41,892 nucleotides of DNA from Prochlorococcus sp. AG-402-G19. GTDB lineage: Bacteria > Cyanobacteriota > Cyanobacteriia > PCC-6307 > Cyanobiaceae. The DNA is taken from contig QCHU01000009.1 of the NCBI GenBank assembly GCA_003279455.1, forward strand, positions 1 through 41,892, written 5' to 3'. Under the pieces are notes generated by a model. It was given only the letters and a program-made list of their open reading frames with translations, was not told the DNA's origin and did no database searches. The translations under genes and the position numbers were made by a program. Below are positions 11,297 through 18,878 of this stretch, piece after piece. The number at the start of each line of letters is the position of its first letter. The stretch's first letter is position 1.

Positions 11297-11362
11297 TGTC
11301 CCTCCGACGATGCCCTCTTCGGGGCTTGAATTAGAGACCTCTACTTTACCAATGGAGTGCTC
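11297..11362 (-). repeat. Degenerate tRNA-Thr 3' fragment (putative attachment site)
   Basis: 66 bp aligned to 17433-17498 at 55 of 66 positions, with the first 21 bases (11297-11317) identical. Those 21 bases cover the 14 bp just outside the tRNA 3' end plus the start of the acceptor stem. The fragment extends through the T arm, variable region and anticodon stem. The anticodon part (TTACCAATGG) looks more like tRNA-Thr(GGT) than tRNA-Thr(CGT). It is in direct orientation with both tRNA-Thr genes, as expected for the distal att repeat of an element integrated at a tRNA 3' end. Confidence 0.8.
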
Positions 11363-11408
11363 AATAATTTTTGAATCCTTGTAACTGCTTGCTATAACTA
11401 AAGAATAA

Positions 11409-12015
11409 GCAAATTCAGCTCAATCTAAAAACAGCCTAAGATATCCAGAGAGAATTGCTGTTGTTGTCTGGAGGGCTTACGAAGACAATCTATCTGTATC
11501 TGGAGGAGGATTGGAAGGGATAGGTAGTTATGAATTTAAAAGGGTTGCTTCAAAACCTGATCCATTTTAAAAAACGAAATTATTAGAAGAGATCGCTGAA
11601 ATTTTTCAATGGTGTTTGTCTATGAGCTATGAGGAAGTAATTGAAACTTTTATTGGTAGAGGAAACATTCAATCGGTTGTTAATGTCTCAATAGAAAACC
11701 TTTTGGACATCAACCTTGTTATTCGTTTTTTACAAGAAAATTATTTTGAGAGTTTTGTTGAAGTAAAAGCTTCAGACCTTTATGAAAGATATTGTGATTT
11801 ATTTCAGAAGTGGAAGCATGGAAACTTTCCAAGACAAAATTTGAGAAAGAGCTGATGAAGATGCTTGGTTTGATCGAAAAGACAAAAACGTTGGAGGGTT
11901 TTACTACAAGATCAAAGCGTTTAAAAATTTCGACTTAGGCGTTCATTTTGGGATGAAAAATAATGCAGGGTCAACCATTCAGAAGCCCTCAACCATGCAC
12001 CCCAACCCTTCCTGA
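11409..12015 (+). pseudogene. Broken hypothetical gene (nonsense plus frameshift)
   Basis: Reading from 11409, one frame gives a coding-like segment (SLRYPERIAVVVWRAYEDN ... SKPDPF) stopped by TAA at 11568-11570. The same frame continues as KTKLLEEIAEIFQWCLSMSY through 11853, and the +1 frame then continues with ADEDAWFDRKDKNVGGFYYK to a stop at 12013-12015. The intact middle piece could be translated alone from the ATG at 11622 (77 aa). The FQKWKHGNFP phrase resembles YEKWNSGEMP of the gene at 5851. I infer decay of a roughly 200-aa picocyanobacterial gene. Family unknown. Confidence 0.45.
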
Positions 12016-12200
12016 TCTAAGCCAAGTGAGGAAAAGGAAAGTTAAAAGGCTGTGCATAGTATGGAAGTTTTTTTTAACAAGAAGGATTCAATTAAAAAAA
12101 AATAAAAAAGATATAGAAAAAGGATTTATCCAAAAAAACCATGCAAACCTTTCAGCTATCAATGGTTGGATTGGATTGGGATATTGGATCCGATGATGCC

Positions 12201-12220
12201 CCCCTTCCTAAGTAAAGGGG
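12201..12220 (+). terminator. Hairpin before the GT41 gene
   Basis: CCCCTT (12201-12206) pairs with AAGGGG (12215-12220), followed by ACAATTTATTTTG, a weak T-rich tail. It could terminate transcription entering from the broken gene upstream. The T tract is poor, so this is tentative. Confidence 0.35.
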
Positions 12221-12300
12221 ACAATTTATTTTGAAAGTTAAAACTTTAGTGCAAGTTATAATCCTAGTTAATAGATCCTTTGTAAAAAAAATAGAGGCGA

Positions 12301-17986: not shown

Positions 17987-18025
17987 CTGCACCAGGGATC
18001 TAAGTAGGAAGAAGAGACAAGAAGA

Positions 18026-18678
18026 TTACGTCCAATCTTTCCTTGTGAGGCAAACTAGTTTTCGTTCCAGATCAAGTTCATTCCATTGCATTGAAAGCAG
18101 TTCAGGGCGTCGCATCCCTGTGGCAAGTGCAAGCTGGGTTAAACGCAGATGATTTGGATTCTTGGCTTGAGCTAGTTGCTTGAGTAAGTCCTGTTCTTGT
18201 CTCTTCGTGAGGTGGGAATTTTGGCATCATAGGTCCCACTTACTTTGAGCTCTCGTTCAGGGTTGGACTTGAGCAGGTAGCCTTGTTCATCTTTGGCCCA
18301 ATCGAGTAGAACCCGCATGATCGTGTTGGGCTTTACTTGGATTAGCCGTTCATCACGCCAGAGTGCAAAGTGCCTGATAGAAAGATCACTGAGTGGAACT
18401 CCACCGACCCAACTGTTTGCCATTGCTCGTTATGACCACTGCGATAATCTTGCAGCGGCCCCTCAATAAACAAATCGATGGCTTCTTTGAGGAATTGAGG
18501 CGGTGGTCGGTCTAATTGTTCTGGTCTTTTGAGAGACCCTTCAACAGCATTTGCCCACAATTTTGCAGCTGCTTGGGAGGTGAAAGTTTTAGACCTTGGT
18601 CCCAGATATTGCTTCTTTCGAATGAGTGCTTGCCAGCACTCTCGCTTCTTCGAATGGTTGCCATTTTTTGAGTTGCAT
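18026..18678 (-). pseudogene. Decayed tyrosine recombinase (phage-type integrase)
   Basis: Three frames on the minus strand join into one integrase-like protein. From the 5' side: RKKQYLGPRSKTFTSQAAAK and LWANAVEGSLKRPEQ; a frameshift near 18420; WVGGVPLSDLSIRHFALWRD and DWAKDEQGYLL; a frameshift near 18210; then QLALATGMRRPELLSMQW. The last phrase is box I, with the first catalytic arginine. The frame ends at TAA 18026-18028 soon after LVCLTRKDW, so the catalytic HxxR and tyrosine regions are missing. A possible ATG at 18678 is out of frame with the body. It lies 129 bp from the 3' end of tRNA-Thr(GGT), the usual position for an element's integrase. Confidence 0.85.
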
Positions 18679-18718
18679 CAGGTCAGATGCATCAAGCAAA
18701 AATAGTCTAAAAACAAAA

Positions 18719-18766
18719 AAAGTGGACCTGTAATTGGACGTCCACTTTCAAAGATTTGCAATCTTT
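18719..18766. repeat. Two adjacent hairpins between recombinase remnant and tRNA-Thr
   Basis: AAAGTGGAC (18719-18727) pairs with GTCCACTTT (18740-18748); immediately after, AAAGATT (18750-18756) pairs with AATCTTT (18760-18766). They may be terminators for the tRNA transcript or recombinase-binding structures near the attachment site. Confidence 0.55.
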
Positions 18767-18806
18767 AGTGCTTTAGATTGCTTGCCCTGACTGCGGTTGA
18801 GGGCAG

Positions 18807-18878
18807 TGCCCTCGTCGGGACTTGAACCCGAGACCTCTCCCTTACCAAGGGAGTGCTCTACCGCTGAGCTACAAGGGC
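18807..18878 (-). tRNA. tRNA-Thr (GGT)
   Basis: 72-nt cloverleaf with almost the same sequence as the tRNA-Thr(CGT) 1.3 kb away. The anticodon loop CTTGGTAAG gives GGT. CCA is not encoded. Its 3' acceptor arm TGCCCTC (plus strand) is followed outward by the complementary GAGGGCA, making a 15-nt palindrome at 18799-18813. It lies 11 nt from tRNA-Tyr and is probably co-transcribed with it. Confidence 0.95.

Follow-up and report, generated by a model that had tools for sequence, protein, structure and literature searches.

Probable remains of two mobile elements beside an essential tRNA gene in Prochlorococcus

In the genome of Prochlorococcus sp. AG-402-G19 (1.28 Mb, 67% complete), a short array of genes has tRNA-Thr sequence on either side, which raises the question of what kind of insertion, and how many insertions, shaped this locus. 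We analysed the whole stretch of DNA that contains it, the 41,892-nucleotide contig C9 (QCHU01000009.1), hereafter called the window. The initial annotation read positions 11297-18878 as the decayed remains of one tRNA-Thr-integrating element with a cassette of glycan genes. We favour, with reasonable though not high confidence, a composite fossil at an integration hotspot, in which two element types are stacked at the tRNA-Thr(GGT)-tRNA-Tyr-aroQ locus; the remains of two mobile elements would thus probably lie beside an essential tRNA gene.

tRNA-Thr copies and flanks at the locus

ARAGORN calls tRNA-Thr(CGT) at 17447-17518, tRNA-Thr(GGT) at 18806-18878 and tRNA-Tyr(GTA) at 18890-18971, all on the minus strand, and the last of these marks the edge of the locus. 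A piece at 11297-11362, also on the minus strand, had been noted as a 66-bp direct repeat, and it is a real tRNA-Thr 3' fragment, made up of 52 nt of tRNA and 14 bp of flank past the tRNA 3' end. Its identity to the CGT region is 83% (E = 6.9e-14 within the genome), and its local score of 44, compared with at most 13 in shuffles (n = 20, 11 kb), excludes chance.

The copy at 17447-17518 is full length and forms the far end of the right unit described below. It is identical to the GGT gene at 69 of 72 positions and is adjoined at 17519-17535 (minus strand) by a spacer and the last few nucleotides of the tRNA-Tyr 3' end, the edge of a direct repeat. This CGT version was found in 1 of the 41 genomes of the genus, the source genome alone; the regular CGT gene of genome G002 differs from it in sequence, and a related locus, L027, carries the same far copy in GGT form. 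What had been annotated as tRNA-Thr(CGT) therefore reads as a drifted duplicate of the GGT gene, not as a regular CGT gene. One of the three changes leads to a U-U mismatch in the anticodon stem (by eye), and a new decoding role is therefore unlikely. A chimeric tRNA, in which an element would have replaced the 3' half by that of a regular CGT gene, was considered and is ruled out by the near-identity to the GGT gene and the dissimilarity to the G002 gene. Worn tRNA duplicates can pass for odd tRNA species in annotation, as at L006, where ARAGORN calls a decayed tRNA-Thr copy (~14316-14388 in the aroQ-forward orientation) tRNA-Leu(GAG).

aroQ was matched in 35 of the 41 genus genomes, the source genome counted. 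tRNAs and window genes were mapped in a locus set of 33 genomes, which leaves out the window's own locus and one 261-bp match at a contig end. The gene order on the left side (fpg, a conserved ORF, LysM, aldehyde dehydrogenase, VTT) is kept in most loci that reach that far, and the interval from VTT to tRNA-Thr is variable in content among the relatives. The 45 bp downstream of tRNA-Thr copies fall into a few flank types, named C, P, P2 and T. Among the copies on the aroQ side (n = 33), 11 are of type C, 14 of P, 3 of P2 and 5 of T (L031 weakly). The recombinase family R326, to which the recombinase of the window belongs, was detected by tblastn in 12 of the 14 P loci (in L012 via a 37-residue C-terminal piece alone) and in 0 of the 19 others; the window was kept out of this count, and itself has a P2 flank together with R326. 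This P2 flank, of the element type, adjoins the working tRNA-Thr at 18761-18805 (score 42, shuffle 99% level 12.5). A displaced type C flank, the downstream flank of an old tRNA-Thr site, lies next to the fragment at 11267-11296 (score 26.0, shuffle 99% level 10.5). Far copies or fragments of type C are also found in L016, L020, L027, L017, L001 and L038. Among the other far copies, L005 and L011 have P, L004 has T, L006 has a weak T, L036 has P2, and L035 fits none of the types. Displaced flanks in the genus are usually C, though others occur. These distributions show that flanks get exchanged at insertion, which matches what site-specific integration predicts.

The initial annotation proposed that relatives with a single clean tRNA-Thr junction would support an integrated element, and such junctions exist. 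A C flank on one intact tRNA-Thr, with neither a second copy nor R326 in the stretch taken, is present in 10 of the 33 loci (L003, L009, L013, L015, L018, L021, L026, L029, L030 and L032, of which L018, L021, L029 and L032 reach just 1.6-4.2 kb leftward); L004, the eleventh locus of type C, contains an additional tRNA fragment at a distance of 15 kb. Positions 11267-11362 of the window resemble single-copy sites of relatives at 79-87% identity, over ~95 bp only. With these sites, the exchanged flanks and a dead recombinase, the claim that this is an integration site is borne out.

The right unit and the R326 recombinase family

The right unit (17447-18878) comprises an R326 recombinase stub, a small ribbon-helix-helix (RHH)-like gene, a hairpin and the second full-length tRNA-Thr. 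The stub is a broken tyrosine recombinase at 18035-18665 on the minus strand, with residues 11-222 of 326 recovered, and its catalytic-domain piece matches PF00589 above the curated cut-off (E = 9e-8). In tblastn with an intact 326-aa relative (from G006), residues 11-222 are spread over three frames at 18035-18635, interrupted by one stop and a gap of 6 residues, and residues 223-326 were not found in the window. Judging from this sequence, the recombinase is dead. The initial annotation had correctly described a frameshifted tyrosine recombinase beside tRNA-Thr(GGT) that lacks its catalytic C-terminus; its start, extrapolated from the alignment, is nearer 141 bp from the tRNA than the 129 bp given there. 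Relatives are present in Prochlorococcus AG-311-J23, AG-409-A10 and AG-402-M23.

A census of the Cyanobiaceae at E <= 1e-30, a limit that the window's own stub does not reach, gave 30 R326 matches in 29 of 300 genomes and 11 of 59 genera. All 30 copies begin 128-145 bp from the 3' end of tRNA-Thr(GGT), and tRNA-Tyr and aroQ are in the locus for 29 of them, the exception being the second copy in G256. Two complete tRNA-Thr ends are found in eight relatives (L005, L011, L016, L020, L027, L035, L036 and L038; L027 is included on account of its two ends and a recombinase similarity of 51 bp), and the far end also has a complete tRNA-Tyr in L005, L011, L016 and L020. The end repeats of L027, L035 and L038 measure ~97 bp (tRNA-Thr, spacer and 6-17 nt of tRNA-Tyr), and those of L016 and L020 ~176 bp (tRNA-Thr and the whole tRNA-Tyr). 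In L036, L005 and L011 the repeats have right edges in common with the others, but owing to similar flanks at the two ends they extend further to the left. The right unit of the window likewise has a family recombinase at tRNA-Thr and a second full tRNA-Thr, with an end repeat that is 87 bp long and drifted. It is 91.7% identical to L027 over 496 bp at the far end, and 16 bp of site flank, no more, precede tRNA-Thr(CGT).

From its position, we infer that the R326 recombinase would have joined a circular form, containing whole tRNA genes, to the locus. As in the better-preserved relatives, the ends would be direct repeats of a complete tRNA-Thr and the last 6-17 nt or all of tRNA-Tyr, which suggests that one element type copies whole tRNA genes upon insertion. 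The intact tRNA would stay on the aroQ side with a second complete copy at the far end, and this far copy could serve as a fresh target, so that further elements stack; the surplus copy would have drifted, anticodon included. Because the copies are identical, a crossover inside tRNA-Thr looks the same as one at the 3' end of tRNA-Tyr that takes tRNA-Thr along as a gene. Among 17 distinct loci with a truncated R326 stub, the N-terminus, on the tRNA side, is retained in 16 and the C-terminus is reached in 3; repeat entries of a locus already counted (L039, L101, L103, L105 and L106), L005 with its complete gene and L023, which is full length but has stops, are outside this count. Such a pattern, the window's stub included, would be expected of deletions that advance from the side under no constraint.

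The small RHH-like gene (17633-17890, plus strand, conserved core 17723-17890) recurs in eight other distinct loci, six in the same genus and two distant, with core identities to the window copy of 91-95% and 42-46%. Its dN/dS of ~0.08-0.16 relative to the window copy indicates purifying selection, and it has no match in Pfam or NCBIfam. The structure model is a two-helix fold with a mean pLDDT of 75.5; the structure matches are weak (all E >= 0.14), and many of the best PDB matches are proteins that we take to be RHH proteins. The model suggests a DNA-binding regulator, which perhaps regulates excision. The hairpin at 17943-18002 (plus strand) was found only in the window, L005 and L035 among 58 sources, and these are the three sequences of its model; a genome scan with stricter filters than the 58-source scan found it in 2 of the 41 genus genomes. 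Each of the three hairpins is inside an R326 element, flanked by its tRNA-Thr ends. As a proven RNA structure the hairpin was rejected, with one compensatory pair, 169 of 500 shuffles equally good and three sequences too few; a protein-binding or termination site would be a guess. Neither the small gene nor the hairpin was in the initial annotation, which also lacked the primase remnant at 11450-12203.

Intact R326 elements carry varied genes. The cargo in L020 is an imelysin and a di-haem peroxidase, and in L035 (11623-15202) an alpha-amylase-family protein, a HAD hydrolase and a weak kinase-like match stand in a row as a sugar-metabolism cassette. Six genomes of genus g18 (L091-L096) have full-length R326 at the same tRNA-Thr with 57-59% identity, and R326 may be a long-standing resident there.

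The left remnant and the genes between the units

The left remnant (11297-12203) consists of the tRNA-Thr fragment and the C-terminus of a P4-type primase. The primase-helicase remnant (11450-12203, plus strand) corresponds to residues 532-786 of 792 in tblastn, contains stops and frameshifts, and matches L017 (in G037) at 85.6% over 763 aligned positions. The intact L017 primase of 792 aa matches TIGR01613 above cut-off and also PHROG primases. The L017 element, 11.5 kb long, starts with a C-flanked tRNA-Thr fragment, continues with an R451 recombinase and other genes, and then has a copy of the RHH-like gene, an 82-aa protein, the primase and a P2-flanked tRNA-Thr. The R451 recombinase, which marks this element type, has no match in the window, and we regard the left remnant as no more than similar to the R451 and primase type, with which it has the end fragment and the primase in common.

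R451 relatives occur in 45 of the 300 family genomes and primase relatives in 18, the source genome counted. Of 63 R451 matches, the 30 that became loci were examined, and a tRNA gene or fragment lies nearby in 28 of them (Ala, Val, Arg, Gly, Thr; in L130 an internal piece alone). The fragments at these loci often begin near the anticodon, and that region is also where the fragment in the window ends. In the reading that we favour, an R451-type element with a primase would have entered at a tRNA-Thr copy by R451 catalysis and split the tRNA near the anticodon, which would leave a 3' fragment with a displaced flank. Later deletions would have taken most mobility genes, with the RHH-like gene staying under selection. 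No relatives of R326, R451 or the primase were found in IMG/VR by pattern scan, and among the matches listed from phage records, integrases reach at most 29.6% and primases at most 22.9% identity.

Between the two units lie genes on the plus strand whose identities largely agree with the initial annotation. They encode a TPR-GT41 protein of 714 aa (12301-14445; PF13844, 8e-71, and TPR), a GT4-type glycosyltransferase of 409 aa (14780-16009; PF00534, 4e-20), a decayed GT41 C-terminal piece in two frames (16049-16452; PF13844, 5e-11 for 16049-16264, the rest by eye) and a GDP-L-fucose synthase-like protein of 306 aa (16453-17373; PF01370 and NF047922). The name GDP-fucose synthase holds in that NF047922 is matched over the full length, but the score of 416.6 bits is below the model cut-off of 500. 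Its own start is likely 16453 rather than the listed ORF start at 16261, and the part of the listed ORF upstream of 16453 resembles, by eye, the end of the frameshifted GT41 piece. The G+C content of the four (GT41, GT4, GT41 piece, fcl) is 24-37%, versus 48% across the recombinase remnant. GT41 domains occur in 27 of the 41 genus genomes and fcl in 13 of 41, with the best others at 70% and 69% identity, and no GT4 relatives were found in the 40 other same-genus genomes at E <= 1e-20. The cassette proposed as cargo is indeed present between the repeats and may have been cargo, but GT41 is spread through the genus. Position alone ties the glycan genes to either element, and does not indicate which, if either, brought them.

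GT41 as a recurrent cargo of the locus was considered and is not supported: several early tblastn matches at the locus fall in the TPR part, and among the PF13844 matches listed a single weak one, in G006, lies near aroQ besides the window. The TPR-GT41 gene and the TPR-less GT4 gene have an N-terminal stretch in common (12340-12474 and 14796-14861) at 73% DNA identity. The 45-residue GT41 leader has matches in 37 of the 41 genus genomes, up to 45 in one, which makes it an N-terminal module repeated widely in the genus and perhaps used as a sorting tag. At 8972-11044, a TPR protein with a C-terminal 2OG-Fe(II) oxygenase domain points away from the GT41 gene, and the TPR arrays of the two proteins are up to 70% alike in inverted orientation.

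Readings of the locus and comparison with known islands

Several observations argue for two stacked elements. The census places R326 always by tRNA-Thr(GGT), eight relatives are two-ended, and R326 goes with the P flank. Ten loci have single C-flanked sites, and the primase element of L017 has a C-flanked fragment but a different recombinase; R451 relatives lie by tRNAs or fragments in nearly all loci examined. Against this reading, no R451 piece is left in the window, the homology to empty sites is short, and so is the flank before tRNA-Thr(CGT). A clean split is further weakened by the RHH-like gene inside the R451-type element of L017, by the P2 flank common to L017 and the window, and by a primase piece that abuts an R326 stub in L014. 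The mixing in L017 and L014 is the main weakness of the division into two elements, and possibly the two types have come together at this locus repeatedly, or some mosaic lineage carries both. The same observations would suit one element, or one mosaic lineage with R326 and primase, bounded by the 11297 fragment and tRNA-Thr(GGT) and carrying the glycan cassette, with the CGT copy internal; the C-flanked fragment on the left and the element-type flank on the right fit it as well. We consider this unlikely, because the R326 units in eight relatives end at a complete tRNA-Thr like that at 17447, the five two-ended loci with full-length R326 (L005, L020, L035, L036 and L038) have no primase match, and L027 has a unit from such a far copy to tRNA-Thr with the close far-end similarity given above. 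The single element of 11.3-18.9 kb in the initial annotation is thus better divided into an R326 unit that ends at the full tRNA-Thr and a left end of another type.

The glycan genes need not be element cargo at all. That they are ordinary island genes, acquired through homologous or illegitimate recombination, has in our view a chance slightly below even, and it is compatible with a composite fossil. The spread of GT41 through the genus argues for it, and so does the single weak PF13844 match near aroQ (in G006), window aside, among the matches listed; in 7 of the 12 other fcl genomes, fcl lies within ~3 kb of GT41 at other loci. On the other side, tRNA-Thr sequence bounds the block on both sides, and L001 has the same order of flank fragment, TPR-part-like protein and tRNA-Thr. 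A decayed tandem tRNA-Thr array with no mobile element would account for near-identical copies and a full-length CGT copy; given the recombinase, the exchanged flanks, the primase remnant and the empty sites, it is highly improbable, and the association of flank and recombinase disfavours it. In the composite fossil that we prefer, the glycan genes may have come via either element or by ordinary recombination, and the insertions may have come in either order.

The locus works like a tRNA-gene island. According to the Islander study (PMC4383910), such islands leave one gene plus a fragment, and its filters reject matches within full-length tRNA genes. Features in common are a tyrosine recombinase (intact in relatives, broken here) next to the tRNA that serves as target, the displaced far-end 3' fragment of the left remnant, the exchanged flanks and the tandem insertion, and fragments at R451 loci that start near the anticodon correspond to the anticodon class described there. 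In contrast, the far copy of the R326 unit is full length, so that its ends are whole tRNA genes and depart from the gene-plus-fragment rule in that text. Such end repeats, if general, would be a simple way to hold an integration hotspot open, and fragment-based searches discard them by design. We tentatively extend this to a Cyanobiaceae-wide family of R326 elements with complete essential host tRNA genes (Thr, sometimes Tyr) in the attachment site. Each insertion might then yield a further working tRNA gene and a complete target, islands of unrelated origin could stack, the surplus tRNA would be free to drift even in its anticodon, and fragment-seeking island finders would miss these elements. 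The mapped ends and intact relatives provide a testable account of one picocyanobacterial spot that keeps gathering variable genes.

A search of the open-access literature for Prochlorococcus tRNA-Thr with integrase, islands and whole-tRNA attachment sites gave nothing on point among the papers listed. PMC10187409 mentions integrases of tycheposons and 'cryptic elements', from Hackl et al. 2023, and also an integrase of picocyanobacteria that uses tRNA-Phe or tRNA-Cys, so finds of a related kind have been made; the 'cryptic elements' may include R326, so part of this family may already be on record. P4-like phage satellites resemble the L017 element in the primase family (TIGR01613, phage/plasmid primase, P4 family) and a recombinase at a tRNA; unlike them, no packaging or capsid gene is among the L017 proteins scanned, and the best matches listed for the L017 primase in phage records cover 74-76% at 22-23% identity. 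Tycheposons, as described in PMC10872708 and PMC10187409, are alike in host group, tRNA sites, tyrosine recombinase and variable cargo. Of their tRNA integration with cargo, the tRNA site is present here, and for the glycan genes only position points to an element. Compared with tycheposons, R326 is confined to tRNA-Thr, and R451 is found at several tRNAs. L117, L134 and L141 each have a pair of R451-type recombinase genes placed back to back, with one tRNA-Ala fragment between them.
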